The notes under the pieces: generated by a model
Databases searched by the model: none
Told to the model about the DNA's origin: nothing
The model's input: the letters and a program-made list of their open reading frames with translations, nothing else
Shown: positions 7,571-40,700 of the stretch, in pieces
Numbering within the stretch: the first letter of the stretch is position 1
Layout: each line of letters opens with the position of its first letter
Assembly: GCF_028292365.1 (NCBI RefSeq)
Contig: NZ_JAQGMM010000433.1
Coordinates: 1 to 41,477, forward strand
Reading direction: 5' to 3'
Source: Caballeronia sp.
GTDB taxonomy: Bacteria; Pseudomonadota; Gammaproteobacteria; Burkholderiales; Burkholderiaceae
DNA length: 41,477 nt
Made by a program: the position numbers and the translations under genes

Positions 7571-9865
7571 TCAGACTTCTGCTATTTCCTTACTTTTCGC
7601 AATCAACGCCTCTCGCACGGCGCGGGCCGCCAGAATCATGTTTGTCAATGCCGCCTCCGTCTCCGGCCACGCGCGCGTTTTCAAACCGCAGTCAGGGTTG
7701 ACCCATAGATGCTCCGCAGGAATGACCTCGCATGCACGCTCAAGCAGGCGCTGCATCGTCGCAACGCTCGGCACCCGCGCCGCATGTGAGTCATAGACGC
7801 CAGGCCCGATTCCATTCGGGTAGACGAACGCACCGAAGCCGTCCAGCAGTTCCATTGAAGAGCGCGACGTCTCGATCGTGATCACGTCCGCATCCAGCGC
7901 TGCGATGGAGGGGAGAATGTCGTTGAACTCCGAATAACACATGTGGGTGTGAATCTGCGTTGCATCGGAGACGCCACTAGCGGCGATCTTGAAAGCCCGG
8001 GTTGCCCAGTCAAGGTAAGCGGGCCACTCGGCCTGACGCAATGGCAAGCCTTCGCGGAACGCCGGTTCATCGATCTGAATGATGCGGATGCCGGCCTTTT
8101 CAAGGTCCATTACCTCGTCGCGAATGGCCAGCGCAAGCTGCAGCGCCGTCGTTTCGCGGGGTTGATCGTCACGGACAAAAGACCACTGGAGCATGGTCAC
8201 CGGTCCCGTAAGAATGCCTTTCATCACGCGGTCGGTCAGCGATTGCGCATGGCACATGTTGTCCACCGTCATGGGCTCCGGACGATAGATGTCGCCGTAA
8301 ATGATGGGCGGCTTGACGCATCGCGAGCCGTAGTTCTGAACCCAGCCGTTCTCCGTCAGCGCAAATCCCCAAAGCTTCTCCGCGAAAAACTCGACCATGT
8401 CGTTACGTTCCGCTTCGCCATGCACGAGTACGTCGAGCCCGAGCTCCTCCTGCTTGCGCACTGCGGCCGTTATCTCCGCGCGCATGCGTTCCAGGTAATC
8501 GAGTGCGCCCAGTTCCCCGCGCCGGTACGCCGCGCGAGCTTGACGGATCGTTGTTGTCTGGGGGAACGAACCTATGGTCGTGGTGGGCAGGAGCGGAAGC
8601 CTGAGCGTATGTCGCTGCACCCGCTTGCGGATGACATAAGGACTTTTACGACTTGCCATCGCCTGGGTGATGGAAGCGGTCCTTCGCCGCACGAGGGTGT
8701 TGACGATCGAGTCCGAGTTGCGTCGCGTATCGAGCGCCGCGTTTGACGCGGCGAGCGCAGATCCGGCTTCTGCCGAATCACTTAACGCGAGCGCAATAGC
8801 AGCGACCTCATCAAGCTTCTCAGTCGCGAATGCAAGCCATGACGTCAAACGGCTATCGAGCCTTTTCTCGGAGGCAAGCGTGACCGGCACATGCAGCAAC
8901 GAACAGGACGGCGCAATCCATAAGTTATCCGACCGTTCTTCACTCAGGCTCCGAAGCGAATCGACGATTTTACCGAGGTCTGCCCGCCAGATATTCCGAC
9001 CATCGATCACACCTACCGACAGCACTTTGCCCGCTGGCAGCGCCGCGCGCCACGCGTCCAGTTGTTCGGGCGCCCTGATCAGGTCGATATGAACACCCTG
9101 CACAGGAAGTTCCGCGACGAGCGGTGCGTGGCGAGCGGTTGTGTCGAAATACGTGCCCAGCATGACCTTGCTGCCTGACGCGCCAAGCACATCGTAGGCG
9201 GCATGAAACGCCTCGATCCATTCGTCATCCAGGTCCAGGCACAGCGCCGGTTCGTCCAGTTGGAACCATTCAATCCCGCGTTGCTTCAACTGGTCGAGAA
9301 TGCGCATATAGCGAATCACGAGCTTTGGCAGAAGTGAAAGCCGGTCAAAGCCGGGAACGGGGCTCTTGGATAGCCATAGGTACGTAATCGGGCCGATGAG
9401 AACCGGCTTGATGGAATGATCCAGTGTCAGCGCTTCATCGATTTCATCGAAGAACCAATCGACCCCGCCATTGAATGTGGTGCTCGGACCCAGCTCCGGC
9501 ACAAGGTAGTGGTAGTTGGTGTCGAACCACTTGGTCATCTCCATGGCGGGCTGCGCCTGGTTGCCTCGCGCCAGCTCATAATATTGCGTGAGCGAGAGCG
9601 CCGACGGGTCAAATTCGAACCGCTCCGGCAACGCACCTAATAGCGCAGTCAGGTTCAGCATCTGGTCGTAGTAGGCGAAATCGCCGACCGCTATAAAATC
9701 CAGCTTCGCCGAGCGCTGCAACGACCAATGGCGCGCACGCAACGCCGCCGCGACGTTACGTACATGAGCTTCGTTGCACTCCCCGCGCCAGAAAGCCTCT
9801 TGCGCGAACTTGAGTTCGCGTTGCGCGCCGATGCGCGGAAAACCGTGTAGATGAGTGCGAGCCAT
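7571..9865 (-). CDS. metE: Cobalamin-independent methionine synthase MetE (first copy)
   Basis: A full-length 764-residue MetE: N-terminal domain beginning MARTHLHGFPRIGAQRELKF, the linker [17 protein letters not shown] that starts the catalytic barrel, and zinc ligands in [10 protein letters not shown] (His and Cys), VITIETSRS (Glu) and NPDCGLKTR (Cys). It transfers the methyl group of 5-methyltetrahydropteroyl-triglutamate to homocysteine to make methionine, in the cytoplasm. The ATG at 9865 follows an AAGGA ribosome site by 8 bases. A second metE lies at 19876-22155; the two proteins differ at many positions throughout (for example KSPVPGFDRLSLLPKL against [16 protein letters not shown]), so this is not a recent duplication. 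A motif shared with the second metE sits upstream at 9929-9956. The nickel/cobalt permease gene lies further upstream on the same strand. Confidence 0.97.
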   Translation of the reverse strand: MARTHLHGFPRIGAQRELKFAQEAFWRGECNEAHVRNVAAALRARHWSLQRSAKLDFIAVGDFAYYDQMLNLTALLGALPERFEFDPSALSLTQYYELARGNQAQPAMEMTKWFDTNYHYLVPELGPSTTFNGGVDWFFDEIDEALTLDHSIKPVLIGPITYLWLSKSPVPGFDRLSLLPKLVIRYMRILDQLKQRGIEWFQLDEPALCLDLDDEWIEAFHAAYDVLGASGSKVMLGTYFDTTARHAPLVAELPVQGVHIDLIRAPEQLDAWRAALPAGKVLSVGVIDGRNIWRADLGKIVDSLRSLSEERSDNLWIAPSCSLLHVPVTLASEKRLDSRLTSWLAFATEKLDEVAAIALALSDSAEAGSALAASNAALDTRRNSDSIVNTLVRRRTASITQAMASRKSPYVIRKRVQRHTLRLPLLPTTTIGSFPQTTTIRQARAAYRRGELGALDYLERMRAEITAAVRKQEELGLDVLVHGEAERNDMVEFFAEKLWGFALTENGWVQNYGSRCVKPPIIYGDIYRPEPMTVDNMCHAQSLTDRVMKGILTGPVTMLQWSFVRDDQPRETTALQLALAIRDEVMDLEKAGIRIIQIDEPAFREGLPLRQAEWPAYLDWATRAFKIAASGVSDATQIHTHMCYSEFNDILPSIAALDADVITIETSRSSMELLDGFGAFVYPNGIGPGVYDSHAARVPSVATMQRLLERACEVIPAEHLWVNPDCGLKTRAWPETEAALTNMILAARAVREALIAKSKEIAEV

Positions 9866-10218: not shown

Positions 10219-10260
10219 GCGGCTAACTTCTAGCGGCTAACTTCTAGCGGCTAACTTCCA
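10219..10260. repeat. Three tandem copies of a 14-bp unit across the permease stop codon
   Basis: The unit GCGGCTAACTTCTA occurs at 10219-10232 and 10233-10246, and as GCGGCTAACTTCCA at 10247-10260. The minus-strand permease gene ends inside this array: its last codons (GAA GTT AGC CGC) and its stop TAG come from the repeat. As 14 is not a multiple of three, gain or loss of a unit on the coding side would change the protein's C-terminus. Confidence 0.9.
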
Positions 10261-11350
10261 GCTCGTCGAAACGCTTGGCGCGATAGATCAGGACCGACAC
10301 GATCCAGCTAAAGGCAAAAATCCCGATGATGACAAAGCCCAGCGTGCCGAAATTATCGTTCAGGGTCCCTATGGCATCCCACACCGGACCTTGCAGCTTC
10401 AATTGATCTGCGAGCAGCCCAAGCGCTTCTATCCCGCCAATCACAATAGCCACGATCACGGACACCAGCGTGATGGTCATGTTGTAGTAGATTTTCCGGA
10501 TCGGCTTAAGGTAGGCCCATCCGTAGGCGCCAAGCATCAGGTGACCGTCCAGCGTGTCTATCAGCGACATGCCGGCGCTGAACAGTACCGGGAACACCAT
10601 GATCGCCCAGGGCGAGAGCCCTTGCGACGTCTGGGTTGCCGCTATGCCGAGCAAGCCAATTTCCGTCGCTGTATCGAATCCGAGACCGAACAGGAAACCT
10701 AGCGGGTACATTTGCCAGCTTCGCGTGATCATGCGAAATAGCGGGCGAAAGAGGCGAGCCAGAAATCCACGATCGGCCAAAAGCAGATCGAAATCGTCGT
10801 CAACGTACGCGCCGCCACTCCTGATGTTGCGCCACGCTTTATAGATCGACCTAAGGATAATCAGGTTCATCAGGGCAATCGCGAACAGGAATAACGCCGA
10901 CACCAGCGTGCCGACCACGCCTCCGATTTCCTTGTAGTGGTCGAACCGCCCTTGCATGGCCGACGTTGCAACAGCCACCCCGACAGACGCGAGCACGACC
11001 ACGGTCGAGTGCCCAAGGGAAAAGAAGAAGCCGACGGCAACGGGGCGTTTTTTCTCCTGCATAAGCTTGCGGGTGACATTGTCAATAGCTGCTATATGGT
11101 CGGCATCCACCGCATGACGCAGGCCGAATCCGTAGGCCAGCAAGGCGGTTCCCAGAAGTACCGGATGATGGCGGAACGCCACGAGTGCCCAAACCCAGGC
11201 GAGGACATTGATCGCAATCAGTAAGCCGTAAATGCCGAAAAGCTTGCTCCGTACCTTGGCGCCCGAGTCGTTAAAGATCTGTACCAGTCGAGTAATCAAT
11301 GGAAACCCTTTGGGAATGCGCGTCCCGCTTGAAGTAATTTTTAACTTCAT
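10244..11350 (-). CDS. NiCoT-family nickel/cobalt permease (HoxN/NixA type)
   Basis: About 368 residues, several membrane helices. The family signatures are present: GLRHAVDADHIAAIDNVTRK (the H-x4-D-H metal motif in helix II), FGLGFDTATEIGLL and GMSLIDTLDGHLMLGAYGW. The family (TC 2.A.52) takes up Ni2+ and/or Co2+ across the inner membrane with high affinity. The ATG at 11350 is used here; the frame stays open to a TTG at 11374 that has an AAGG about 6 bases upstream, so the longer form is possible. Metal preference cannot be read from the sequence. It neighbours the cobalamin-independent metE but is separated from it by about 380 bases and probably a terminator. No urease, hydrogenase or cobalamin genes are in the window. 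Confidence 0.93.
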   Translation of the reverse strand: MKLKITSSGTRIPKGFPLITRLVQIFNDSGAKVRSKLFGIYGLLIAINVLAWVWALVAFRHHPVLLGTALLAYGFGLRHAVDADHIAAIDNVTRKLMQEKKRPVAVGFFFSLGHSTVVVLASVGVAVATSAMQGRFDHYKEIGGVVGTLVSALFLFAIALMNLIILRSIYKAWRNIRSGGAYVDDDFDLLLADRGFLARLFRPLFRMITRSWQMYPLGFLFGLGFDTATEIGLLGIAATQTSQGLSPWAIMVFPVLFSAGMSLIDTLDGHLMLGAYGWAYLKPIRKIYYNMTITLVSVIVAIVIGGIEALGLLADQLKLQGPVWDAIGTLNDNFGTLGFVIIGIFAFSWIVSVLIYRAKRFDELEVSR

Positions 11351-11692
11351 ACACAAGAGTTGTGCCAATGGCAAGGATGCCTTGGTCGAAGGGGTTACGA
11401 AAGGTCTTTAGCAACAATTGGCAGGGTGAGCAGCGGCGCGGGAACGCCCTAAAGTGGCGCTGAACGAGCGGAGATTGGGCGCGCTCGCACCAGTAGCAAG
11501 CCCAGCCATCCGCCGGGTAGCGCGGGTTGCCTCAGCCATCTCGCGGGGTTGCGACCACCCTCGCCCACAAGGCACCGAGTATTACCCCAGCCGATCAACA
11601 CCATAACCAATACCGATTGTTGTTGATCTGCAATTTTCTCGTTCCTAAGATGAATCAGCCGAAAAAAAAGCGATAACACGGAGACACTGATT
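11351..11692. other. Divergent promoter region between permease and the glutamylation operon
   Basis: These 342 bases separate the minus-strand permease from the plus-strand ligase operon and must hold both promoters. I looked on the minus strand for a cobalamin riboswitch ahead of the permease and saw no B12 box. A clear dyad (11593-11628) lies near the operon side. Several GC-rich short stems lie between 11450 and 11580. The ligase start at 11693 has a CGGAGA ribosome site about 10 bases upstream. Confidence 0.5.
11593..11628. promoter_or_regulatory. Dyad GATCAACA / TGTTGATC, candidate operator of the ligase operon
   Basis: GATCAACA at 11593-11600 is the exact reverse complement of TGTTGATC at 11621-11628, with 20 bases between the arms. 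A second small palindrome (CAAT-ACCG-ATTG) lies inside. The right arm is 64 bases before the ligase start codon, a normal place for a regulator site. The likely regulator is the LysR protein encoded at 17252-18223, but this is inference. Confidence 0.45.
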
Positions 11693-13090
11693 ATGGATGC
11701 GCAAGCGAAGCCCGAACGGGCAATCAAGACAGTGGAAGATGCGATTCGTCTGGTGGAGGCGAGCAGGCTGACGCATATCAAAGTGGGCCTGTCCGATATC
11801 GACGGTATCTTGCGCGGGAAATATCTGCGCAAGGATAAATTCCTCGGAGCACTGCGTTCGGGATTCGCCTTCTGCAATGTCGTATTGGGCTGGGACGCCG
11901 ACGACCAGATGTACGACAACACGAAATACACCGGCTGGCACACGGCCTATCCGGACGCCATGGTGCGCATCGTACCGGAGAGCTGCCGGCGTTTGCCGCT
12001 GGAACAGGGCGACGGCGAAGACATGCTGTTCTTCCTTGCCGAATTTGTTGGGGATGCCGAAGCAATTTGCCCACGGGGCTTGTTGCAACGGGTATTGAAG
12101 CGCGCAAGCGACATGGGATTCGAGGCTTCTGCCGCGCTTGAATATGAATTCTTCATGTTTGAGGAAACGCCCCATTCGGTGCGCGAAAAAAACTACCGCG
12201 ACCTGAAGAACTGGACGCCGGGCAATTTCGGCTACTCGGTACTGCGCAGTACGGTCGAAGGCGATTTTTATCGGCAATTGCTCGATATGTGCGAGCAGAT
12301 GGACATGCCGATCGAGGGCCTGCATACCGAAACCGGTCCCGGCGTGCTGGAGGCTGCGCTTGCGGTCGACGGCGCGTCCGAGATGGCGGACAAGGCCATA
12401 TTGTTCAAGACATTTACCAAGGCGCTGGCTCAGAAAAATAATCTGATGGCGACCTTCATGGCGAAATGGTCGCATGACCACCCAGGACAGAGCGGTCATA
12501 TCCATTTGTCCTTGCGTGAGGCGAGCACGGGCAAGTCGGCGTTTTACGACGAAAGCCGTCCTTACAATATGAGCGTCAAGCAGGCCAGTTTCATGGCGGG
12601 GGTGCAACGCTACCTGCCCGAATTCATGTCGATGTTCGCGCAGACCGTCAATAGCTATTCACGGCTGGTGCCGGGCTATTGGGCGCCGCTGGATGCAACA
12701 TGGGGCGTTGAGAATCGAACGACAGCCTTGCGGCTGATCCCGGGTTCGGAAAAATCTCAGCGCGTTGAAGTCCGCATTGGTTCGGCCGACGCGAATCCCT
12801 ACATTGCATTGGCAGCCGCTTTGGGCGCCGGCTTGCATGGCATCGAACAGGGTCTGGATCCAGGGCAGATCGTCGAGGGCAACGCCTATACGCAGGAATT
12901 CCCCGCCCATCTGAAATTGCCTTGCACGTTGTGGGAGGCCGCACAGCGACTGCGCCATTCGGAAGCCGCGAAGACTTTGTTTGGCGAAGCATTCGTCGAG
13001 CATTTTGTCGCGACCCGCGAATGGGAAGAGCGACAGTTCCGACGGCATGTCACCGATTGGGAACTAGCCCGCTATTTCGAGATTATCTGA
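11693..13090 (+). CDS. Glutamine-synthetase-like gamma-glutamyl-amine ligase
   Basis: A 465-residue member of the glutamine synthetase fold. The N-terminal beta-grasp contains HIKVGLSDIDGILRGKYL; the catalytic barrel shows metal-binding ALEYEFFMFEE, LHTETGPGVLEAAL and GQSGHIHLSL, and substrate-binding NSYSRLVPGYWAP and ALRLIPGS. True glutamine synthetase has PGYEAP at that loop; the Glu there helps bind and deprotonate ammonium. Here it is Trp, so ammonia is an unlikely substrate and a bulkier amine is expected, as in PuuA, IpuC and the GlnA3/GlnA4 proteins. No adenylylation-type Tyr loop (NLYDLPPEE) was seen. It is the first gene of an operon with an aldehyde dehydrogenase 20 bases downstream, an iron alcohol dehydrogenase and an M81 metallopeptidase. 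Likely reaction: ATP + glutamate + amine to gamma-glutamyl amide. The amine is not known; an amino alcohol fits the neighbours best. Confidence 0.88.
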   Translation: MDAQAKPERAIKTVEDAIRLVEASRLTHIKVGLSDIDGILRGKYLRKDKFLGALRSGFAFCNVVLGWDADDQMYDNTKYTGWHTAYPDAMVRIVPESCRRLPLEQGDGEDMLFFLAEFVGDAEAICPRGLLQRVLKRASDMGFEASAALEYEFFMFEETPHSVREKNYRDLKNWTPGNFGYSVLRSTVEGDFYRQLLDMCEQMDMPIEGLHTETGPGVLEAALAVDGASEMADKAILFKTFTKALAQKNNLMATFMAKWSHDHPGQSGHIHLSLREASTGKSAFYDESRPYNMSVKQASFMAGVQRYLPEFMSMFAQTVNSYSRLVPGYWAPLDATWGVENRTTALRLIPGSEKSQRVEVRIGSADANPYIALAAALGAGLHGIEQGLDPGQIVEGNAYTQEFPAHLKLPCTLWEAAQRLRHSEAAKTLFGEAFVEHFVATREWEERQFRRHVTDWELARYFEII

Positions 13091-13110
13091 GTCCAAACAT
13101 CCAAGCCAAT

Positions 13111-14505
13111 ATGATGAAAGAAGAACTGATTACCATTAGCCCGATTGACGGCAGCGAATTCGTGCGCCGGCCTTATGCGAGCGAATCGCAGATTCAGCAG
13201 ACGCTACAGCGCGCGAAAACTGCCCAGAAGGCGTGGGCTGCACGACCGCTCTCGGAGCGGCTGGCGCTGGTTGGTCAGGCCGTAGAACACTTCGTCCAAA
13301 ACAAGGCAGCCATCGCCGAGGCGATTACGCGTCAGATGGGACGCCCGTTGCGCTACACCGCCGGCGAAGTGGACGGCTTTGCCTCGCGGGCGCGCCACAT
13401 GATGGCGATTGCCGAAGATGCATTGAAGCTCGTGCAAGTGGTCCCGCAGGAAGGCTTTACCCGTTTTATATCGCGTGAGCCGGTTGGTGTTGTGCTCACC
13501 ATCGCGCCGTGGAATTACCCCTTGCTGACGGCAGTCAATAGTATTGTCCCGGCATTGCTCGCGGGCAACGCCGTGATTCTCAAGCACTCCGACCAAACAC
13601 CATTGTGCGCCGAGCTCATTCACCAGGCCTTTGTCCAGGCTGAATTGCCCGAGGGTGTGTTTCAGTATCTGCATGTGGATCATGAACGTGTGCGTCGATT
13701 GATACACGCGAACGAGATCGGCTTTGTCTGTTTCACCGGTTCGGTGGGCGGGGGACGCATTGTCGAGGAAGCGGCGGCCGGGCGGTTTATTGGGGTTGGG
13801 CTGGAACTGGGCGGTAATGATCCGGCCTACGTGCGAAGCGATGCCAATCTCGACTACGCAGTAGAGACGCTGGTCGACGGCGCCTTCTTCAATTCGGGCC
13901 AGTCATGCTGCGGTATCCAAAGAATTTATGTGGCTCAGCCTCTGTACAAGGATTTTATCGAGCGCGCGGTGGCGCTCACGAATCAATATGTGCTGGGCAA
14001 TCCGCTTGATGCGCAAACTACGCTTGGACCGGTAGTCCGTACCGCAGCAGCCGACGGGGTGCGGACCGTAATCGCCGAGGCACTCGCCAAAGGCGCTAAA
14101 AATCTGATCGACGAAACTCGGTTCGGCATGTCGCACGCCGGCACACCCTATGTGGCGCCGGGCGTGTTTGTGGATGTCGATCACGGCATGACGCTGATGA
14201 ACGATGAGTGTTTCGGCCCGGTGGTTGGCATCATGCCGGTGTCCGGAGATGAACAAGCCATCGAACTGATGAACGACAGCCCCTACGGTTTGACGGCCAG
14301 TGTGTTCACGAGCGACGAAGAAGCCGCGCTATCGATCGGCCGCCGTGTAGAAACCGGCACCTTCTTCATGAACCGCTGCGACTATCTCGACCCTGCACTG
14401 GCCTGGACCGGAGTGAAGAATACCGGCCGAGGTGTGACCTTGTCGGCAATCGGATACGAGCACCTGACACGAGCCAAATCTTTTCATCTGAAAACCCGTC
14501 TCTGA
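13111..14505 (+). CDS. Aldehyde dehydrogenase of the glutamylation operon
   Basis: A 464-residue NAD(P)-dependent aldehyde dehydrogenase from the ATG at 13111 (a second ATG is the next codon). The frame is open back to 12922 inside the ligase gene, but that part has no family similarity. Catalytic features are complete: IAPWNYP (Asn135), GVGLELGGNDP (Glu232) and NSGQSCCGIQ (nucleophile Cys266, with a second Cys beside it). The cofactor fold FTGSVGGGRIV is present. It starts 20 bases after the ligase stop and ends 23 bases before the alcohol dehydrogenase, so it is cotranscribed. Expected role: oxidation of the aldehyde made by the next gene's enzyme to a carboxylate, probably while still gamma-glutamylated. 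I saw no strong ribosome site, so coupling to ligase translation is possible. Confidence 0.93.
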   Translation: MMKEELITISPIDGSEFVRRPYASESQIQQTLQRAKTAQKAWAARPLSERLALVGQAVEHFVQNKAAIAEAITRQMGRPLRYTAGEVDGFASRARHMMAIAEDALKLVQVVPQEGFTRFISREPVGVVLTIAPWNYPLLTAVNSIVPALLAGNAVILKHSDQTPLCAELIHQAFVQAELPEGVFQYLHVDHERVRRLIHANEIGFVCFTGSVGGGRIVEEAAAGRFIGVGLELGGNDPAYVRSDANLDYAVETLVDGAFFNSGQSCCGIQRIYVAQPLYKDFIERAVALTNQYVLGNPLDAQTTLGPVVRTAAADGVRTVIAEALAKGAKNLIDETRFGMSHAGTPYVAPGVFVDVDHGMTLMNDECFGPVVGIMPVSGDEQAIELMNDSPYGLTASVFTSDEEAALSIGRRVETGTFFMNRCDYLDPALAWTGVKNTGRGVTLSAIGYEHLTRAKSFHLKTRL

Positions 14506-14528
14506 ACGGATCATCGAAGGAATTTCGT

Positions 14529-15701
14529 ATGTCACATCCGTCACTTCCCTCCGCAAACTGGAATTACCCGACCGCAGTCAAGGTCGGCGCAGGCCGGATC
14601 CGCGAATTGCCGCAATGGTGTCAAAGCCTGGGCATGCGCCGGCCGTTGTTGATTACCGACCCGGGTCTGGCCGCATTGCCGCTGATCGGCAGCGTCCTGG
14701 ATCACTGCCGGTCCGCCGGTCTGGAGTGCGGACTGTTTCACGAGATCAAGGGCAATCCGACCGGCAAGAATGTCGACGATGGCGTGGCCATATTCAAGGC
14801 CGGCGGCCATGACGGTGTGATCGCCTTCGGCGGCGGCTCGGCTCTTGATGCAGCCAAGGCCGTGGCGCTAATGGTTGGGCAGGATCGTCCATTGTGGGAT
14901 TTCGAAGACATCGGCGACAACTATCTACGCGTCTATGTGGCCGGCATGGCGCCCGTTGTTGCCGTACCCACCACGGCCGGGACCGGCTCGGAAGTCGGGC
15001 GAGCATCGGTGATCACCGACGACCACGCTCATGTAAAACGCATCATATTCCACGCAAACATGCTGCCCTCGGTCGTCATTCTCGACCCCGAGTTGACGGT
15101 CGGCTTGCCGGCCAAGCTGACAGCGGCGACCGGCATGGATGCGCTCTCGCATAACCTCGAAGCCTATTGTTCACCGTTTTATCATCCGATGGCGACTGGC
15201 ATCGCGGTCGAAGGCATTCGCCTGATCAAGCAGTATCTGCCGCGTGCCGTCAAGGACGGCCAGGACCTCGATGCACGCCTGCAAATGCTGGTGGCGTCGA
15301 GTATGGGCGCCACCGCATTTCAGCGTGGCCTGGGCGCGATGCATGCGCTGGCGCATCCTCTGGGCGCGCTGTATGACGCCCACCACGGCATGCTCAACGC
15401 CATCCTGATGCCGTATGTGCTCAAGGCCAACGAATCGGCGATCTCGGACCGGATCGAACTGTTGGCGCGCTATCTTGAACTGGCGCAGCCGTCGTTCACC
15501 TCCTTCCTCGACTGGGTCCTGATGATGCGCGACACATTGGGCATTCCCCATACGCTGAGCGAGATCGGCATTGATGGCAGCAATGCGGCAAAGGTCGGCG
15601 AAATGGCCGTGGCTGATGGGTCAGCCGGGACCAACCCGATCCCGTTCAGCGACGCCGAGTACAGCCGCATTTTCGTGACGGCGGTAGAGGGCTTGCTGTA
15701 A
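14529..15701 (+). CDS. Iron-containing alcohol dehydrogenase (group III)
   Basis: A 390-residue Fe-ADH. The NAD-binding motif is GVIAFGGGSALDAAKAVAL, followed by VPTTAGTGSEVGRASVITD. The four metal ligands are visible at the family spacing: Asp204 and His208 in GMDALSHNLEAY, His272 in GAMHALAHPLGA and His286 in DAHHGMLN. This is the same spacing as in FucO-type enzymes. A GAAGGAA ribosome site precedes the ATG. It should interconvert an alcohol and an aldehyde with NAD(H). Placed between an aldehyde dehydrogenase and an M81 gene, it probably oxidises the hydroxyl end of the glutamylated amino alcohol. It lacks any N-terminal aldehyde dehydrogenase fusion of the AdhE type. Confidence 0.93.
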   Translation: MSHPSLPSANWNYPTAVKVGAGRIRELPQWCQSLGMRRPLLITDPGLAALPLIGSVLDHCRSAGLECGLFHEIKGNPTGKNVDDGVAIFKAGGHDGVIAFGGGSALDAAKAVALMVGQDRPLWDFEDIGDNYLRVYVAGMAPVVAVPTTAGTGSEVGRASVITDDHAHVKRIIFHANMLPSVVILDPELTVGLPAKLTAATGMDALSHNLEAYCSPFYHPMATGIAVEGIRLIKQYLPRAVKDGQDLDARLQMLVASSMGATAFQRGLGAMHALAHPLGALYDAHHGMLNAILMPYVLKANESAISDRIELLARYLELAQPSFTSFLDWVLMMRDTLGIPHTLSEIGIDGSNAAKVGEMAVADGSAGTNPIPFSDAEYSRIFVTAVEGLL

Positions 15702-15738
15702 AGCCAGTTGATTTGATCAGTGTTATCGAGGGGATGGT

Positions 15739-17217
15739 GTGGCAAGAATCGGGATCGCTGGCTTTCTACATGAGACGAATACCTTTGCCGCCAGCCGGGC
15801 GAGTTTTGCTACTTTCGTCGAGGCAGACGCGTGGCCCGGCTTGCTCGTTGGCGAGGAGATGTTCAGTGCGGTCTCGGGCGTCAATCTGGCAATAGACGGT
15901 TTCATACAAGCTGCGCGCACATCGCACGAACTCGTCCCGCTATTGTGGGCCTCGGCCAACCCCAGCGGTCCCGTGACGCAGGATGCATTCGAAGCGATTG
16001 CCTTCATGCTCGACCGGATGATCCGCGATGCAGGCCGGTTGGACGCGCTGTTTCTCGATCTGCATGGCGCGATGGTCAGCGAGCATCTGGAGGACGGTGA
16101 GGGGGAGTTGCTGCGACGCCTTCGGCGACGAGTCGGCTGCACGATGCCGATAGTCGCGGCGCTCGATTTTCACGCCAATATCACGCCGGCCATGATCGAA
16201 CATGCCAGCGGCCTGCTGCCGTACCGCAGCTATCCGCATGTCGACATGGCGCAGACAGGGCAGCGTGCACACGTGCTGCTCGACCGGTTGCTCGCCGGCG
16301 AAGTGTTGCACAAGGGCTATCGCCAGGTACCTTTTCTGATTCCCATGCCTTGGCAAAGCACCTTGAGCGAACCGATGCGTGGTTTGGTGGCGCTTGGTGA
16401 ATCGCTCGCGTCGGAACAGGTTTTTGCGGCCGACTTTGTGCCGGGTTTTCCGCTCGCCGATATCCAACAAAGTGGGCCTAGCGTGATTGCCTATGGCGCC
16501 AATCAGAGGGCGGTCGAGTCAGCGGTTGAATCTTTAACACAGGCTGTTCTGACTAGACGGGCGGACTTCGGCGGGCGTCTCTATCTGCCGGCCGAGGCGG
16601 TCGCGCACGCGCTTGAGCAGGGCCTGCGACCGGGGGGCGGTACGGTCATCCTCGCCGATACCCAGGATAATCCGGGCGGCGGCGGTGGCGGCGATACCAC
16701 CGATATCCTGCACGAACTGTTGCGGCAAAAAGCGCAGCGGGTTTGCGCCGGGGTCGTGTGCGATGCCGGATTTGTCGAAGCAGCAACGCACGCGGGAATC
16801 AGCGCCGTTATCTATGTCCCGCTGGGCGGGGTCGGAGGTTTGGGCGCAGGGCCGGTGCAAGCGCCATTCGAGGTGCTTGCACTGGGAAGCGGCCGTTTCA
16901 CCGGCACAGGGCCCTTCTACCATGGCTGCCACATGGATCTGGGGGCGATGGCCCGGGTGCGCTGCGGCGGCCCGCATGGGATTGAAATCGTGGTGTCGAG
17001 CCGCAAACAGCAGGCTGCCGATCAGGCCATGTTCCGTCATGTCGGCGCCGATCCAGCCGATTACCGCATTCTGGTTCTAAAGAGCTCAGTACATTTTCGA
17101 GCCGACTTTGCCGCGTTGGCAGACGAGATTCTGGTGGTCGCCGCGCCCGGTATCAATGTCGCGGATTTGCGCCAACTGCGTTATGAAAAATTGAGGCCGG
17201 GCGTCACGCTGCTTTGA
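15739..17217 (+). CDS. M81-family (MlrC-type) metallopeptidase, possible gamma-glutamyl hydrolase
   Basis: A 492-residue protein starting with GTG at 15739, preceded by GAGGGG at a good distance. N-terminal DUF1485 features: IGIAGFLHETNTFA, LFLDLHGAMVSEH, and the metal site ALDFHANITP (Asp143, His145) with His167 in YPHVDM; the D-x-H then H 22 residues later is the M81 spacing known from microcystinase MlrC. A Gly-rich DNPGGGGGGDTT segment follows, then the C-terminal MlrC domain. Known members cleave a linear microcystin peptide, but the family is much wider than that. Here it ends an operon that starts with a gamma-glutamyl ligase, so a plausible role is amide hydrolysis that returns glutamate, the step done by PuuD in putrescine breakdown. 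That assignment is inference. No signal peptide is visible, so it acts in the cytoplasm. Confidence 0.9.
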   Translation: MARIGIAGFLHETNTFAASRASFATFVEADAWPGLLVGEEMFSAVSGVNLAIDGFIQAARTSHELVPLLWASANPSGPVTQDAFEAIAFMLDRMIRDAGRLDALFLDLHGAMVSEHLEDGEGELLRRLRRRVGCTMPIVAALDFHANITPAMIEHASGLLPYRSYPHVDMAQTGQRAHVLLDRLLAGEVLHKGYRQVPFLIPMPWQSTLSEPMRGLVALGESLASEQVFAADFVPGFPLADIQQSGPSVIAYGANQRAVESAVESLTQAVLTRRADFGGRLYLPAEAVAHALEQGLRPGGGTVILADTQDNPGGGGGGDTTDILHELLRQKAQRVCAGVVCDAGFVEAATHAGISAVIYVPLGGVGGLGAGPVQAPFEVLALGSGRFTGTGPFYHGCHMDLGAMARVRCGGPHGIEIVVSSRKQQAADQAMFRHVGADPADYRILVLKSSVHFRADFAALADEILVVAAPGINVADLRQLRYEKLRPGVTLL

Positions 17218-17251
17218 AGTAAGCGCGGCACGTCAGCTTCATCAGCTTGTT

Positions 17252-18223
17252 TCAGCCCAACACAATAGACGGCAGCACCCACGGCGCATTCGCCTCGATG
17301 ACTGGCAGGAAGCGCTTTTTCAGCAATTCCACGCTGTCCTGCGCGAGTTGCTGCGGCAGCAAGCCGAGATCGTCCTGGCGGGCGACCATGGTCAGTTCGC
17401 GGAAGAACTCTTCGCCGGGAATCGGGGACAAGCGAAACGCCGGGGAAAACTTATTGTCCAGCGTCAGCCCCGACTGCAACAAGCATAGCGGCGTGGTGAT
17501 GGTCCAGCCGGCATTGGCCATCACCAGGGACATGATGGCGAACGTATTGTCGAGTTGCAGTCGCAGCGGTGGTTGAATCCCCCATTTCTCCAACTGGGTT
17601 TCAATGCTGCGGCCAATGACGGTCGTATTGCTATAGCGAATGAAGTCGCCTCTGACCAGGAGATTGCGCAAAGAGGGAACAGGTCCTTTGAAGTCACCGG
17701 GCAAAACCAGCACAAAAGGTTCGCGCAAGATACGCTGCCGGTATAGCAAAGGGTTCTTTGACACAACGTCATCGGAAATGATGATGTCCACCCGCCTGGA
17801 CAACAACGCTTCGGCATGTTGATGCGATTGACCCGTCACCATCGACCAGTTGGCGGTGCGCTGCCGTATCGCGACCAGCAGATCGGCGCCAATGCTGGTC
17901 GCCATGGAATCGACCAGTGCAATCCGAATATGCTTGAGCGGTTCACCGAGGGGTTTGCGGAACTCCTGACTCAAATGCCTGGCGTCATCCAGCAGCGTAC
18001 AGGCCCGGTTGTAAAACTGGCGCCCTATGGGTGTCAGCATTGGCGGCCGCTGCGAGCGATCCAGTAATTGCAGATTGAGTGTTTGTTCCAGATTCGACAG
18101 CGTTTGAGAGACTGACGATTGCGTGATGCTCAGCCGTTGACCGGCCGCCGTCATGCCGCCGGATTCGACGACAAGCACGAAGACCTCAAGCGCCTTCAGA
18201 TCGAAAGAAATGCCATTTTGCAT
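17252..18223 (-). CDS. LysR-family regulator, probable regulator of the ligase-M81 operon
   Basis: A 323-residue LysR protein: winged helix in residues 8-65 (LEVFVLVVESGGMTAAGQRL, then TQSSVSQTLSNLEQTL), then an effector domain. It is convergent with the ligase-M81 operon, its stop only 34 bases from the M81 stop. On its other side, a cystathionine gamma-synthase-family gene runs in the same direction and ends 148 bases upstream of it, so a readthrough link with that gene is also possible. It has no divergent partner, which is unusual for LysR; the operon on its 3' side is the best guess for a target, with the dyad at 11593-11628 as the best candidate site. Confidence 0.88.
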   Translation of the reverse strand: MQNGISFDLKALEVFVLVVESGGMTAAGQRLSITQSSVSQTLSNLEQTLNLQLLDRSQRPPMLTPIGRQFYNRACTLLDDARHLSQEFRKPLGEPLKHIRIALVDSMATSIGADLLVAIRQRTANWSMVTGQSHQHAEALLSRRVDIIISDDVVSKNPLLYRQRILREPFVLVLPGDFKGPVPSLRNLLVRGDFIRYSNTTVIGRSIETQLEKWGIQPPLRLQLDNTFAIMSLVMANAGWTITTPLCLLQSGLTLDNKFSPAFRLSPIPGEEFFRELTMVARQDDLGLLPQQLAQDSVELLKKRFLPVIEANAPWVLPSIVLG

Positions 18224-18371
18224 AAGACCGGCTGATGAGCCGCAGCAGGAAGTGGCCGGGAACGGACGGGTTGTATCACACCTCGGCCTAGTTTAACCGC
18301 AGTGAGCAGCGGCGCAAAAGGTGATCTGAAAACGCGCCGCAGCTCGGGGCTGCCAAGGTCTTGCAATGCAG

Positions 18372-19875: not shown

Positions 19876-22155
19876 TCACACGCCCGCGCGCAACGTCTTC
19901 GCGGCGGCGACCATGTTCTTGAGCGCGGGGATCACTTCATCCCACTGACGCGTCTTCAACCCGCAATCCGGATTAACCCACAACCGCTCCGCCGGAATAC
20001 GCTCAGCCGCTTTGCGCATCAATTGAACAATGTGCTCCTGGCTCGGAATATTCGGCGAGTGGATGTCGTACACGCCCGGTCCAATCTCGTTCGGGTAGTT
20101 GAAGTTATCGAAGGCATCCAGCAACTCCATGTCCGAACGCGATGTCTCGATCGTGATCACGTCGGCGTCCATGTCGGCAATCGACTCAATGATGTCGTTG
20201 AATTCCGAATAGCACATATGCGTGTGGATCTGCGTTTCGTCCTGCACGCCGTTCGCCGTGATACGGAACGACTCAACAGCCCACTGCAGGTATTCGTTCC
20301 ACTGCGACTTTCGCAACGGCAAGCCTTCACGCAGCGCTGCCTCGTCGATCTGGATCACACGCACACCGGCTTTTTCCAGATCCAGCACTTCTTCGCGGAT
20401 AGCCAGCGCCAACTGATGGCACGACACCGAACGCGGCTGGTCGTCGCGCACGAAGGACCAGTTCAGGATAGTGACCGGACCCGTCAGCATGCCCTTCATC
20501 GGCTTGGCCGTTTGCGATTGGGCGTACTTGATCCACTCCACGGTCATCGCCTTCGGACGGCTGATGTCGCCGAACAAAATGGGCGGCTTCACGCAGCGCG
20601 AACCGTAGGACTGCACCCAGCCAAACTGACTGAATGCGTAGCCGTCGAGCTGCTCGCCGAAGTACTCGACCATGTCGTTGCGCTCGGCTTCGCCGTGCAC
20701 GAGCACATCCAGTCCCAGCGCTTCCTGTTCGCGCACGCTGCGCGTGATCTCGCTTTGCATGACGGCCTTGTAGCCGGCGTCGTCCAGTTCGCCGCTCTTG
20801 AACTGGCTGCGAGCCTGGCGAATCCCGGCGGTCTGCGGGAACGAGCCAATCGTCGTTGTCGGGTACGCCGGCAGCTTCAACAACGCCGACTGCTTCGTGG
20901 CACGTTGCGGGTAAGCGCTTGAACGGCGGCCCAGCGCTGCATCGATTTTCGCAACCGCTGCCTTGACCGCTGGATTGTGCACGCGCGGCGACGAACGGCG
21001 GTTCTGGATGGCAACCCCGTTCTCAGCAAGCGCCGCTTGCACCGACTGGCGTCCGCCGTTTAGCGCGTGGGCCAGCACCTTCAGTTCGTCGAGCTTCTGC
21101 AAGGCGAATGCGAGCCAGGACCGGATTTTCTTATCGAGCTTTTGCTCGCTGACGAGATCGACCGGCACGTGCAACAGCGAGCACGACGGCGCGATCCACA
21201 AGCGGTCCTGCAATGTCTTATGGATGGGTTCCACCCAGTCCAGCACCGCGCTCAGGTCGCTCTTCCAGATGTTCCGGCCATTGATGACACCCAGCGACAG
21301 CACCTTGTCCGAAGGCAACTGCGCGAGCACCTTCTCAACTTCAGCACGCGCGTTGATTGCATCGATATGCAGACCTTGAACCGGAAGATTGCACGCGATT
21401 TCCAGGTTGTTCTGTAGCTGTCCAAAGTAGGTCGTCAGAAGCAGCTTGGCCTTCGAACCCTTCAATGCGTCGTAGGCCGTGACGAAAGCTTGCTGCCATG
21501 TTGCGTCGAGTTCCGTGACCAGGGCAGGCTCGTCGATCTGCACCCACTCCACACCTTGCGCCGCGAGTTGTTCGAGCAACGCTGCATAGACCGGCAAGAG
21601 GCGCGGCAACAATGCAAGCTTGTCCGAATCATCCTTTGCCTTGCCTAGCCACAAATACGTCACCGGCCCAATGATGACCGGCTTGGCCTTCACACCGAGC
21701 TTGCGAGCCTGCGCCAACTGATCGAGCAGGCGCGATGCATCGAGTGCAAACTCAGTCGAAGCGCTGAATTCCGGCACGATGTAGTGATAGTTCGTATCGA
21801 ACCACTTGGTCATCTCGCCAGCTTGCACGCCGCAACTGCAAGCCGAATCTTGCGCGGAGCGGCCACGCGCGACGCGGAAGTAATTGTCCAGTGAACTGCC
21901 GTCAAAACCGCGTACGCGTTCCGGGACGTTGCCAAGCGTGAAGCTCGTATCGAGCACCTGGTCGTAGAACGAAAAATCGCCGACAGGCACATGGTCCAAA
22001 CCGGCCTGGTCTTCCCAATGCCGCTCGCGCAGTTGTGCGCCCAAGCTGGTCAGTTCGTCGCGTGACGACTGGCCTTTCCAATAACTTTCCTGCGCGAATT
22101 TCAGTTCGCGTTTTGCGCCGATGCGGGGGAAACCCAAATTGTGCGTCGTGACCAT
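19876..22155 (-). CDS. metE: Cobalamin-independent methionine synthase MetE (second copy)
   Basis: A complete 759-residue MetE starting [20 protein letters not shown]. The catalytic half begins at [20 protein letters not shown]; zinc ligands are in [20 protein letters not shown] and NPDCGLKTR. It carries a small cysteine-containing segment ([16 protein letters not shown]) before the conserved [12 protein letters not shown], a place where the first copy (7571-9865) is shorter. The reaction is methyl transfer from methyltetrahydrofolate polyglutamate to homocysteine. An AGGAG lies 10 bases before the ATG. It is divergent from metR, the classical arrangement in proteobacteria, and shares an upstream motif with the first metE. 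This copy is probably the ancestral MetR-controlled one. Confidence 0.97.
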
Positions 22156-35625: not shown

Positions 35626-36333
35626 ATGTCAGCCTTGCTCAAGAACGTCGAAGACATCCACCCCGCCTTATGGCGAGGGTCGCAGCTCGCGCGCTCGCAT
35701 GGGCAAACGGTCGACACGGGTTACGCCGTGCTGTCGGCCGAACTGCCGGGCGGCGGCTGGCCGCTGGGCACGCTGATCGAGTTGCTGGTGCAGCAGCCGG
35801 GCGTGGGCGAAGTCAGGCTGTTACGCCCGGCGCTCGCCGCAGTGAGCCGCCGCCCTATCGCCTTTGTGCAACCGCCTCATAGTCCAAATTCTCTCGCTTT
35901 TGCGTATCTGGGTGTGCCGCTCGAGAAGCTGCTCCAGGTGCGTGCATCGAAACTGGCTGACGCATTGTGGTCAGCCGAGCAAATTCTCAAGACCGGCAGT
36001 TGCGGCGCGCTGGTCTTCTGGCAGCAGTACGCGCGCACGGAGTCGCTGCGGCGCCTCCACATGGCCGCGCAATCCTCTGAAACGCTGTTCCTGATGGTGC
36101 GGCCGCTCGCGAGCGCGGCGGATTCGTCACCGGCCACGTTGAGGCTGTGCGTGCGGCCGGCCGGCGACGGTATTGCTGTCGACATCATCAAGCGCAAAGG
36201 CCCGATCCGTGCTGAAAGACTGTCCGTCACCCTGCAACCCTCTCCCGTTCTAATGAGTCCCCATGCCCGTGTACGTCGGCATACATCTACCCCGGTTGTC
36301 GCTGGAAGTGTTCCGTCCACGCTGGTCGCGTAG
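35626..36333 (+). CDS. imuA: ImuA, accessory protein of error-prone repair
   Basis: A 235-residue ImuA: MSALLKNVEDIHPALWRGSQ, then LPGGGWPLGTLIELLVQQPG, LRPALAAVSRRPIAFVQPPH, LGVPLEKLLQVRASKLADAL and WSAEQILKTGSCGALVFWQ. The family is a degenerate RecA/SulA-like protein that works with ImuB and DnaE2 in damage-induced mutagenesis. It starts 10 bases after the LexA box. Its last 71 bases overlap imuB in another frame, which ties expression of the two. Confidence 0.93.
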   Translation: MSALLKNVEDIHPALWRGSQLARSHGQTVDTGYAVLSAELPGGGWPLGTLIELLVQQPGVGEVRLLRPALAAVSRRPIAFVQPPHSPNSLAFAYLGVPLEKLLQVRASKLADALWSAEQILKTGSCGALVFWQQYARTESLRRLHMAAQSSETLFLMVRPLASAADSSPATLRLCVRPAGDGIAVDIIKRKGPIRAERLSVTLQPSPVLMSPHARVRRHTSTPVVAGSVPSTLVA

Positions 36334-37756
36334 GCCTGAACATGGCTGCGTCGTCCTCGACCGCGACACGGTCTTCATAGGAGACAAGGGCGCTCGCGAG
36401 GCCGGCGTATGCGTGGGCATGAAACGCGGCGGCGTCCTCACGCTCTCGCCCGACACCCTCATGTTCGAGCGTGAGCTGAGCCGGGAAAACGACTTGATGC
36501 GCGAGGTAGCTTTTTCGTTGATGAAATTTTCACCCATGGTCGCGCTCTGCGATGAGGAAACCATTGTTATCGACGTCACGGCGAGCTTGCGGCTCTTCGG
36601 CGGCATCGTGCCGCTGTGTCATCAGATGCAGGAGATTGTGAATGCCATCGGCGTGACGGCACGCCTTAGCACGGCGCCGACCGGCCAGGGCGCGTGGCTG
36701 CTGGCCAAAAGCACCCGGAACGCTCACCTCGGCAAGCGGCGCGTGCTGAAAATGGCATCGCTTGAACGCAAGCTTGGAACGCTGCCGTTCCAGGCCGCGC
36801 CGGAAGTGCGCGCGTTCACGGACTGGTTCAACGGGCTGGGTTGCAAGACGCTGAACGACATTCGCCGCCTGCCGCGTGCAGGGCTTAAAAAGCGTTGCGG
36901 CGTCGCGCTGCTGGATTCGCTCGATCGCGCTTATGGACTCGCGCCCGAGCTATACGAATGGCTGGCTGTGCCGCCTGCTTTCAGCGCGCGCATCGAGTTG
37001 CCCGATCGTATCGAGCACGCGGAAGCCATGTTGTTTTCCGCGCGCCGGTTGATCGTGCAATTGTGCGGCTGGCTGAGCGCGCAGCAACTGGCGCTCACGC
37101 ACGCCACGCTCACGCTGGAGCACGAGCGCGGCCGCGATGCCATCGACCCCACCGTTATCCAGATCGCGCTCGCTGAACCCACCTGGCACGAAGAACATCT
37201 GCTGCGCTTGTTCAAGGAGCGGCTTGGCCGCACGGAACTCGTGGCTCCGGTGATTGCGATGCGTCTGAGCGCCGCAAAAATACAGCCCGCCGAGCCGCCT
37301 ACCGAGACGCTTTTCCCTGAACCCGGCGGCTCGCCAGAAGACCACAATCGTTTGCTGGAATTGCTGGTTGCGCGACTGGGCGCCGAGAACGTGCTGCGAG
37401 CGGCGCCTTCATCGGATTACCGGCCTGAACAGGCGAACCGATGGATCTCCGTCACCGACACCACCCATCCTCAAAAGCTGGAAGCCGTGCCGTCGGATCT
37501 GCCGCGTCCGGCGTGGCTGCTTGAAAAGCCGCTGCAATTGATGATGAAAAACCATCGGCCGTTTTATGGGTCGTCGCTAAAACTGGTGTCGCCGGCTGAA
37601 CGCATCGAGGCGGGATGGTTCGATAGTAATTTGATGAGCCGCGATTATTTCGTCGCGCAAGCCAGCGATCAAAGTTGCTACTGGATTTATCGCGAGCGGC
37701 CCGGTAGTGCTGACGCCGAAGATCCGCGCTGGTTTCTCCACGGTCTGTTTGGATGA
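36263..37756 (+). CDS. imuB: ImuB, catalytically degenerate Y-family polymerase homologue
   Basis: A 497-residue ImuB starting MPVYVGIHLPRLSLEVFRPR. It has the Y-family order (palm with GCVVLDRDTVFIGDKGAREA, DETIVIDVTASLRLFGG, HhH region CKTLNDIRRLPRAGLKKRCG, little finger around 290-400). In active Y-family enzymes the first motif is D-x-D followed by F/Y; here it is GIHLPRL, so the catalytic acid is missing, as known for ImuB. It acts as the hub linking the beta clamp with DnaE2 and ImuA. It overlaps imuA by 71 bases and ends 6 bases before dnaE2. Confidence 0.94.
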   Translation: MPVYVGIHLPRLSLEVFRPRWSRRPEHGCVVLDRDTVFIGDKGAREAGVCVGMKRGGVLTLSPDTLMFERELSRENDLMREVAFSLMKFSPMVALCDEETIVIDVTASLRLFGGIVPLCHQMQEIVNAIGVTARLSTAPTGQGAWLLAKSTRNAHLGKRRVLKMASLERKLGTLPFQAAPEVRAFTDWFNGLGCKTLNDIRRLPRAGLKKRCGVALLDSLDRAYGLAPELYEWLAVPPAFSARIELPDRIEHAEAMLFSARRLIVQLCGWLSAQQLALTHATLTLEHERGRDAIDPTVIQIALAEPTWHEEHLLRLFKERLGRTELVAPVIAMRLSAAKIQPAEPPTETLFPEPGGSPEDHNRLLELLVARLGAENVLRAAPSSDYRPEQANRWISVTDTTHPQKLEAVPSDLPRPAWLLEKPLQLMMKNHRPFYGSSLKLVSPAERIEAGWFDSNLMSRDYFVAQASDQSCYWIYRERPGSADAEDPRWFLHGLFG

Positions 37757-37762
37757 TGCGCC

Positions 37763-40700
37763 GTGGATACCACCTTCTCCATGCTGCCCGCGTATGCGGA
37801 GCTTTTCGCGTTTTCCAACTTCACGTTCCTGCACGGAGCATCGCGTGGAGAGGAATTGGTCGCGCGCGCGGCGCAACTCGGTTATGCCGGTCTGGCGATC
37901 ACCGATGAATGCTCGCTCGCGGGTGTCGTACGCGCGCATGTGGAGGCGAAGAACCTGAATTTTCCGCTGGTGATTGGCTCGTATTTCAAGCTCGTCAATG
38001 CGGATCTTTCGCCGGCCTTCGGACTCATTTTGCTGGCCACGAACCGCAATGGTTACGGCAATTTGTCCGAGCTCATCACCATTGCCCGCATGCGGTCGAA
38101 AAAAGGCGCGTACCTGCTCACGCCTAACGATCTGGCACGGCCCGATAAAGAGTTCGCGCATCTGCGCGGTATGCCGGATTGCCTCGCGATCCTGGTGCCC
38201 GATTTCCCCGCGAAGCAGACTGCGCTCGATGCCCAGATCGAATGGCTCGACACCACGTTTCCTCAACGGGCGTGGGTTGGATTGACGCTGCACCAGCGCG
38301 CGCTCGATGACATCCACCGGGGGATCGTCGAGCACGTGGCTGCGTTTCATAAGGTGCCTGTGGTGGCGACCGGCAACGTGGTGATGCACGTGCGCTCGCG
38401 CAAGCCGCTGCAGGACACCATGACGGCAATTCGTATTGGCAAGCCCGTGTCGGAATGTGGTTACGATCTCGCGCCGAACGCCGAACAACATCTGCGTTCC
38501 AGGTTGCGGCTCGCGAATCTCTATCCGGAATACACGCTTGGCGAAACGCTCAACGTGCTCAAGCACTGCACCTTTTCACTCGATGATTTGCGTTACGACT
38601 ATCCCGACGAGATTGTGCCGGCCGGTTATACCCACGCCGCGTATTTGCGGCAGGAAACCTATATTGGCGCGCATCGGCGTTTTCCGCTCGGCGTTCCGCA
38701 CAAGGTGCAGGCGCAGATAGAACATGAACTCGAGTTGATCGAGCATATGAAATACGAGGCGTATTTTCTCACCGTCTACGACCTCGTCCGCTTTGCGCGC
38801 GGTGAAAATATCCTTTGTCAAGGGCGTGGTTCCGCGGCGAACTCCGCTGTGTGCTATTGCCTCGGTGTTACTGAAGTGGACCCGGCGCGCAGCAACATGC
38901 TGTTCGAGCGATTTATCAGTAAAGAGCGCGGTGAACCGCCGGATATTGATGTCGACTTCGAGCATCAGCGGCGCGAGGAAGTCATCCAGTACATCTATCG
39001 AAAATATGGGCGTGATCGCACGGCGATTGCGGCGGCGGTGTCGACATATCGGCCACGCGGCGCATTGCGTGAAACGGGCAAGGCGCTGGGCGTCGATCCG
39101 CAGATTGTGGATCGCGTCGCGAAGTCGCATCAGTGGTTCGATACCAGTCATGACCTGCTGCAGCGCTTCACTGAATCCGGGCTTGATCCGGAGAATACGT
39201 TGATTCAATCGTGGGCTTCGCTGGCCGCGCAGTTACTGAATTTTCCGCGGCATTTATCGCAGCATTCCGGGGGATTTGTGATCAGCCGGGAGAAACTGAC
39301 GCGGCTGGTTCCTATCGAAAATGCGGCTATGGTGGATCGCAGCGTGATCCAGTGGGACAAGGACGATCTGGAAGCGCTGGGGCTTTTAAAAGTTGATGTG
39401 CTCGCGCTCGGCATGCTCTCGGCCATTCGACGCACGCTCGATATTGTCTCGGAGAAACGCGGCGAGCGTCTTGAGATGCAGGACATTCCACCCGACGATA
39501 AACCGACCTACGACATGATCTCGCAGGCGGACACTATCGGCGTGTTTCAGATTGAGTCGCGTGCGCAAATGTCGATGTTGCCGCGACTGCGGCCGAAGGA
39601 GTTTTACGATCTGGTGATCGAGGTGGCGATCGTACGGCCCGGTCCGATTCAGGGTGGCGCAGTGCATCCGTATTTGCGGCGGCGTCAGGGGTTGGAGGAA
39701 GTGAACTACCCTAGCGAGGGGTTGAAGATCGCACTCGAAAGAACCTTGGGCGTGCCGATATTTCAGGAACAGGTCATGCAGATCGCGATGATCGCAGCGG
39801 GGTTTACAGCCGGTGAAGCCGATGCATTGCGACGGGCAATGGCAGCATGGAAACGCAAAGGCGGTCTGGGAAAATATTATGACCGGATTGTGAACGGCAT
39901 GGTCGAGCGCGGTTATAAAAAGGCCTTTGCAGAAGCAATTTTTGAGCAGATCAAGGGCTTCGGTGAATATGGTTTTCCGGAAAGCCATGCGGCGAGTTTT
40001 GCGTTGCTTGTGTATGTCAGCAGTTGGTTGAAGCGACATGAACCAGCGGCGTTTCTTGCGGCCATGCTCAACTCGCAACCGATGGGTTTCTACTCCCCTT
40101 CGCAACTCGTGCAGGACGCCAAGCGTCATGGTGTAGTCGTGTTTCCCGCTGACGTGACGGTGAGCGGTTGGGATTCGGTGCTTGAGTATCCGGATGAATG
40201 CCGCGGCGATGACAGCAGGCCTGCTGTGCGACTGGGGTTATCGCTGCTTCGCGGGATGCGGGATGGTGCGGCTGAGCGTATTGAAACTGCCCGTAGCGTG
40301 CGTCAGTTCGAAAACGTGGGGGACCTCGCACAACGGGCGCAACTTGATCGGCATGACTTGCAGGCGCTGGCTGCTGCCAACGCGTTGACTTCGCTCGCCG
40401 GGAATCGGAGGGAAGCGTTATGGCAGTCCGTGGCTGCAGTGCCCGACAAGGATCTGCTCAACGATGCCCGCGTAGAAGATGTCACGCCGCTGCTTGGCGC
40501 GCCTTCGGAAGCTGACGATATTGTCAGCGACTACAAGGCTACGGGTCTGTCTCTCGGACGTCATCCGCTTGAACTGTTGCGTCCGGCGTTGCTTGAGCAT
40601 CGGTTGATGTCGGCCGCTACGTTGCGTGATTACAGGAATGGACGATTAGCGCGTGGGTGCGGACTCGTGACGGTGCGTCAACGGCCTGGAACCGCGAAGG

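Follow-up and report, generated by a model that had tools for sequence, protein, structure and literature searches.

The DNA analysed here (hereafter the window) is a 41,477-nucleotide contig, NZ_JAQGMM010000433.1, from the genome of a Caballeronia sp. (G000; 8.08 Mb in 681 contigs), and its subject is a run of four closely spaced genes on the forward strand. These encode a glutamine synthetase (GS)-like ligase (11693–13090; PF00120, Gln-synt_C, 326.5 bits), an aldehyde dehydrogenase (ALDH; 13111–14505; PF00171, Aldedh, 408.4 bits), an iron-containing alcohol dehydrogenase (Fe-ADH; 14529–15701; PF00465, 170.2 bits) and a zinc peptidase of the M81/MlrC family (15739–17217; PF07364, DUF1485, 295 bits; PF07171, MlrC_C, 169.9 bits), with Pfam scores well over the cut-off for all four proteins. 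The genes are separated by 20, 23 and 37 bases. The ALDH gene starts at the ATG at 13111, internal to a longer mechanically called open reading frame (ORF), and the M81 gene starts with GTG. A preliminary description of this DNA had reported the same four genes, order and gaps, and these were borne out by the ORF coordinates and Pfam matches, as was its remark that the operon holds neither a transporter nor an aminotransferase.

By its family scores and one active-site position, the ligase is not an ordinary ammonia-using glutamine synthetase. It reached 214.7 bits against an NCBIfam cut-off of 429.15 for GlnA, 196.1 against 469.6 for type III, and 180.4 against 650 for the gamma-glutamylputrescine synthetase model NF045547 (PuuA type). 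At residue W330 (codon 12680–12682), its PGYWAP aligns with PGYEAP of the glutamine synthetase 4s0r, whose glutamate we take to sit in the ammonium pocket; tryptophan occupied this position in all 87 related ligases. PF00120 membership would also allow an ordinary glutamine synthetase, or one of polyamine type, in chance company, but this is scarcely credible given how far the ligase falls below all three cut-offs, the tryptophan in every related ligase, and a gene order kept across families. The two dehydrogenases adjoin the ligase with their active-site residues intact: ALDH residues C266, C267 and E232 were kept in 76/76 related proteins (one of the two cysteines, plus E232, being presumably catalytic), and the putative Fe-ADH metal ligands D204, H208, H272 and H286, whose roles we assume from the family, in 77/77. 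The Fe-ADH score (356.6 of 500) had raised the possibility of a 4-hydroxybutyrate route; this was dropped because it would leave the ligase and the M81 protein without a role.

The four genes recur as a unit in several families of the order Burkholderiales and in a few more distant genomes. The same genes, order and strand were found in four genomes of the same genus (G020, G028, G025 and G002), and likewise in two genomes from other families of the order, G103 and G121, where identities to the window proteins were 77 and 74% for the ligase, 68 and 72% for ALDH, 79 and 73% for Fe-ADH, and 57 and 51% for M81, respectively. It was also present in G351, G167 and G309. Such conservation of order and strand among relatives indicates that the association exceeds chance, and the preliminary reading, for which a gene-neighbourhood search had been named as a check, survived it. 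Within the genus the operon is an accessory trait, with a close M81 relative (89–91% identical) in 4 of 57 other genomes.

For a wider sample, the ligase alignment alone was used to scan titled genome contigs, the 80 loci retained being the best 80 of at least 533 confirmed relatives. Within the fetched stretches, ALDH was present at 69 of these loci, Fe-ADH at 70 and both at 65, while M81 stood behind Fe-ADH at six: in Paraburkholderia fungorum (ligase 92% identical to that of the window), Gallionella, Allopusillimonas, an Alcaligenaceae isolate, Iodobacter and a groundwater gammaproteobacterium. In two more Gallionella genomes, Fe-ADH and M81 lay at a contig end and the ligase on a different contig.

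The place behind Fe-ADH varies among these clusters. At 35 of the 80 ligase loci, the gene directly behind Fe-ADH belonged to one protein cluster, whose member at L071 matched PF00117 and is thus class I amidotransferase-like (GATase type); a profile search added three further loci, among them L119, which also matched PF00117. The 80 loci therefore comprised 38 of GATase type, six with M81, none with both and 36 with neither, and when the window and six relatives were added (87 loci) the counts were 38, 13, none and 36. In the window, the cluster lacks a terminal hydrolase of the PF05013 or class I GATase type and the slot is taken by M81; no match to the GATase-type protein was found anywhere in G000 at E 1e-15. 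On a midpoint-rooted tree of the ligases, a single branch (support 100/98) separated all 13 M81-type operons, together with 15 loci of neither type, from 59 rows holding every GATase-type locus. Mapped onto this tree, the M81 label required 4 changes, compared with 12.3 in shuffles, the 4 arising because neither-type loci lie among the M81 ones. Given the midpoint root, the direction of the swap can only be inferred.

In eleven Achromobacter clusters (L050–L060), the sequence retrieved held ligase, ALDH and Fe-ADH but lacked both M81 and a GATase-type gene. Six of their contigs end 0.6–0.9 kb past Fe-ADH and five have 7 kb left, including L051, where tRNA and 5S rRNA genes follow Fe-ADH. That these bacteria use a relocated operon-type M81 was considered and dropped: the best M81 genes in six Achromobacter genomes were 48–49% identical, and the four Achromobacter proteins placed in the M81 tree fell with the non-operon branch.

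The fourth protein belongs to the M81/MlrC family by both Pfam domains and by its zinc-ligand residues (E, D, H, H), and has solved homologues in 3iuu and 7ylq. Residues E12, D143, H145 and H167 were present in 13 of 13 operon proteins and correspond to the MlrC zinc ligands E39, D167, H169 and H191, as named in the available part of PMC9982164 (which in one place writes H196); E12 was matched to E39 by motif because the N-terminus lay outside the aligned stretch. Against the NCBIfam microcystinase MlrC model, the protein scored 139.5 bits, far from the cut-off of 999. M81 genes are numerous, with four in the window genome and 4 to 11 in each of the six Achromobacter genomes searched. The operon proteins stand apart. 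With distant outgroups included, they formed one side of a branch facing 30 others (support 87/81; 88% of bootstrap trees), and with six rows removed and six added, a branch of the 13 operon and two Gallionella proteins reached 100/99. An M81 match at E 1e-128 or better occurred in 24 of 399 genomes of the order; all six at 52% identity or more lay beside Fe-ADH, compared with none of the 18 at 47–49% (flanks of ∼1.5 kb). Ligase and M81 distances correlated across the 13 operons (r 0.79), although shared descent alone would give the same. Both trees recovered the groups L066-L068-L165 and window-L046-L049 and joined the two.

Transporter genes in the relatives bear on the substrate. At L036 and L067, a permease upstream of the ligase scored 635.6 and 647.8 bits, respectively, over the 381.75 cut-off of the ethanolamine permease model TIGR00908, and a permease stretch at L105 fell slightly below it (361.9). 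The L068 operon is accompanied by a tripartite ATP-independent periplasmic (TRAP) transport system whose binding protein matched PDB 4uab (E 3.3e-143) and is 70–75% identical to those of eight other scan loci; according to the portion of PMC12410723 available, 4UAB is Csal_0678 solved with bound ethanolamine. In the window's own genus, G002 holds a 42-residue remnant of an ethanolamine permease (L046:4804–4929), ∼175 bases 5' of the ligase and 88% identical to the TIGR00908 permease of P. fungorum (E 4e-18). In a control against reversed sequences (matches accepted to E 1), the sole match had E 0.53, and the other forward matches (L044, L045 and L049) had E 0.25 at best. This remnant suggests that the operon of the genus probably once carried an ethanolamine permease.

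Other genes beside these operons may also concern uptake or supply. At L035:16422–18230 (G103) and L163:12843–14354 (G351), an APC-type permease (TIGR00907-like, below cut-off) adjoins the ligase, standing where others have the ethanolamine permease. At two M81-type loci, L063 and L165, no permease was recognised by the queries used. Beside the ligase cluster of Achromobacter L050 (4355–9925) lie genes for an inositol-monophosphatase-family protein and an SBP_bac_6-type binding protein; a DeoR regulator is close by. Both the phosphatase and the binding-protein gene have relatives behind M81 at L066:15402–20912 and L068:15402–17325. As a guess, these genes may feed in ethanolamine from a phosphorylated precursor.

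Taken together, we consider it probable that the operon encodes a gamma-glutamyl-ethanolamide pathway in which M81 serves as a replacement gamma-glutamylglycine hydrolase. In this scheme, the ligase (a proposed gamma-glutamylethanolamide synthetase) would use ATP to join ethanolamine to the gamma-carboxyl of glutamate; Fe-ADH, as gamma-glutamylethanolamide dehydrogenase, and ALDH, as gamma-glutamyl-aminoacetaldehyde dehydrogenase, would oxidise the glutamate-bound ethanolamine to gamma-glutamylglycine; and the M81 zinc peptidase would cut the gamma-glutamyl amide to release glutamate and glycine. The peptidase would thus be a non-orthologous replacement for the amidotransferase-like or formylglutamate-amidohydrolase-like enzyme of other clusters. 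It also seems likely that this distinct M81/MlrC branch consists of gamma-glutamyl-amino-acid hydrolases that, probably on a single occasion, displaced the hydrolase normally used for ethanolamine breakdown in a Burkholderiales-centred operon lineage, and that have been passed down with the operon. The sequences establish the four genes and their joint conservation, the non-overlap of M81 and GATase types in the clusters examined, the intact active-site residues and the ethanolamine transporters of some M81-type relatives; from these we infer the catalytic steps, the host's substrate, the regulator's role and the direction of the swap. The preliminary description had proposed gamma-glutamylation, two oxidations and hydrolysis, which gene content and conservation support well and which appears right in outline; among the substrates it offered (ethanolamine, alaninol and 3-aminopropanol), the conversion of ethanolamine to glycine is the best supported, through the transporters of M81-type relatives.

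Two sets of observations weigh against this interpretation, the first of which concerns the last step. Neither hydrolase was present in the fetched stretch at 36 of the 80 ligase loci; in 13 of these the contig ends less than 1 kb past the final gene of the cassette, and in the other 23 it runs on further. The exclusivity of M81 and GATase types is weak by counting: the probability of no overlap was 0.017 among the 80 loci and 0.00026 among the 87, seven of which were picked through M81 or kinship. As all rows are related, the case for exclusivity rests instead on the tree and the slot. The ligase and M81 trees also differ in part, namely in the order within window-L046-L049 and in the placement of L035, L036, L067, L163, L164, L063 and L105, basal support in the ligase tree being weak. 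MlrC, the M81 enzyme with described chemistry, cuts linearised microcystin (PMC9982164, available in part) and not a gamma-glutamyl dipeptide. Finally, G000 has two PF05013 genes, both on contigs other than the window, which could perform the last step.

In an alternative, M81 would serve peptide scavenging and have no part in this pathway, the last step being performed by an enzyme encoded elsewhere (a PF05013 protein or a gamma-glutamyltransferase). In its favour are the two PF05013 genes of G000 and the 23 loci that continue for more than 1 kb past the cassette without a hydrolase of either type, which make a hydrolase encoded elsewhere possible in general. One non-operon M81 gene inspected with annotation (L196, on an Agrobacterium plasmid) also has ABC transporter, M20 and amidase genes as neighbours. 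Against it, the operon M81 proteins form a separate branch tied to the operon and occupy the place behind Fe-ADH; at L066 and L068 the stop codon of Fe-ADH overlaps the start of M81 (TAATG); and none of 30 fetched PF05013 loci (of 45 places found) had ligase, ALDH, Fe-ADH or M81 within 1.5 kb. We regard this alternative as improbable and retain M81 as the predicted gamma-glutamylglycine hydrolase.

The second set concerns the host's substrate. No TIGR00908 permease above cut-off was found in the window genome, nor in G002, G020, G025 or G028, and EutB was matched in 52 of the 58 genomes searched in this genus (some matches being fragments or containing stops), including all five that carry the operon, the window genome among them. 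With EutB present and the permease absent, the host need not rely on the operon for ethanolamine. The same chemistry might then act on another amino alcohol (alaninol, 3-aminopropanol, serinol or similar), yielding alanine, beta-alanine or another amino acid, with ethanolamine left to EutBC and the operon retuned after the loss of the permease, which in G002 is reduced to the remnant described above. However, the window's ligase, ALDH and Fe-ADH are 64–74% identical to those of the clusters with ethanolamine transporters (L036, L067 and L068) and share their invariant residues. In P. fungorum (G166) both the operon and a TIGR00908 permease are present without an EutB match, and such a match was absent from 6 of the 12 M81-type genomes tested. 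Two routes for ethanolamine can, moreover, coexist, because EutBC requires cobalamin. A retuned substrate is therefore a less favoured option, though one to be taken more seriously than peptide scavenging, and ethanolamine remains the preferred substrate. An ipu-type isopropylamine/alaninol route was also considered and dropped; a literature search showed no link to M81.

A LysR-family gene (17252–18223, reverse strand; PF00126/PF03466) is convergent with the operon, ending 34 bases beyond the M81 gene; the preliminary description had not listed it. LysR relatives at 57–62% identity stand beside the operon or its permease at L067, L105, L163 and L164, and the gene probably belongs with the operon as the regulator that would control it. 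Upstream of the ligase, the sequence has diverged among six aligned genomes, save for one strongly conserved block (from 11581) that contains an imperfect inverted repeat, GATCAACACCATAA...TTGTTGTTGATC, at 11593–11628, 65–100 bases 5' of the ligase start. Searched for in 87 upstream regions, a pattern built from the six genomes matched those six and missed the remaining 81; the repeat is a candidate operator.

Several further features lie around the operon. A gene for a NicT/NixA-type nickel/cobalt transporter (10244–11374) is divergent from it, and a 92% relative also adjoins the operon in G025 (L045). Genes resembling metE flank the operon on both sides: that at 7571–9865 scores as cobalamin-independent methionine synthase, and that at 19876–22155, alike by sequence, adjoins a MetR-like regulator gene. 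The idea of a cobalamin-riboswitch island around the two was dropped, as the window contained no Rfam family at the gathering threshold. Farther along (36263–40921), a DNA polymerase III alpha-like gene (PHP, NTPase and finger domains) follows a 497-residue ORF with no Pfam match at E 1e-8, an arrangement that we take to resemble a dnaE2 mutagenesis cassette. A plasmid origin was likewise dropped, since the stretch 11375–18300 had no near match in the plasmid collection.

To our knowledge, M81 genes mostly lack an assigned reaction. If correct, the proposed role would give a primary-metabolism function to a family known mainly by a toxin-degrading member, and tying one M81 branch to one reaction in one pathway makes that function directly testable. 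It also suggests how carriers of these clusters complete the pathway without the usual amidohydrolase. For annotation, the rule would be that an M81 gene ∼50% or more identical to that of the window and beside Fe-ADH is a likely enzyme of this pathway, and that other M81 genes are not. The operon is a variant of the known gamma-glutamyl-ethanolamide pathway, and only M81 in the last slot is new. The preliminary description knew of no pathway with this exact gene set; this needs amending for the core, which is known from Chromohalobacter salexigens (PMC9397018, available in part), and stands for the last slot, as our search of the literature, restricted to open-licence papers, returned no M81 protein in that position of an ethanolamine route.

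Comparison with known systems places the operon within a familiar logic. MlrC microcystinase (PDB 7YLQ) shares with the window protein its family (138.2 bits), the matched zinc-ligand residues and an HETN motif, but differs in gene setting and expected substrate, and the window protein lies far below the microcystinase cut-off. The Puu putrescine pathway (PuuA/B/C/D) proceeds by gamma-glutamyl protection, oxidation and release, with PuuD being class I GATase-like. The operon would follow the same sequence of protection, oxidation and release, with Fe-ADH in place of the oxidase PuuB and M81 in place of PuuD, and with a ligase that fails the gamma-glutamylputrescine synthetase cut-off. In Streptomyces coelicolor, the GS-like enzyme GlnA4 makes gamma-glutamylethanolamide, as demonstrated by assay and deletion, and two oxidations and a hydrolysis were proposed to follow (PMC6529630, available in part). 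There, a short-chain dehydrogenase and SCO1615 are involved and the regulator is EpuRI, whereas here we find an iron dehydrogenase, M81 and a LysR protein. The GATase-type clusters (38 of the 80 ligase loci) differ in having a class I GATase-type gene where the window has M81. The primary work on C. salexigens is reportedly that of Vetting and colleagues. Its set consists of PF00120, PF00465, PF00171 and PF05013 members (Table 2 of PMC9397018, as far as that paper was available), so that ligase, iron dehydrogenase and ALDH are common to both. For Phaeobacter sp. MED193, the available part of PMC10132767 describes a related cluster that includes a TRAP transporter for ethanolamine, and both the Chromohalobacter and the Phaeobacter clusters include an ethanolamine transporter, as do those of the M81-type relatives L036, L067 and L068. 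The window operon differs from that of C. salexigens in having no transporter and in its last enzyme, which is of the PF05013 family there and an M81 peptidase here.

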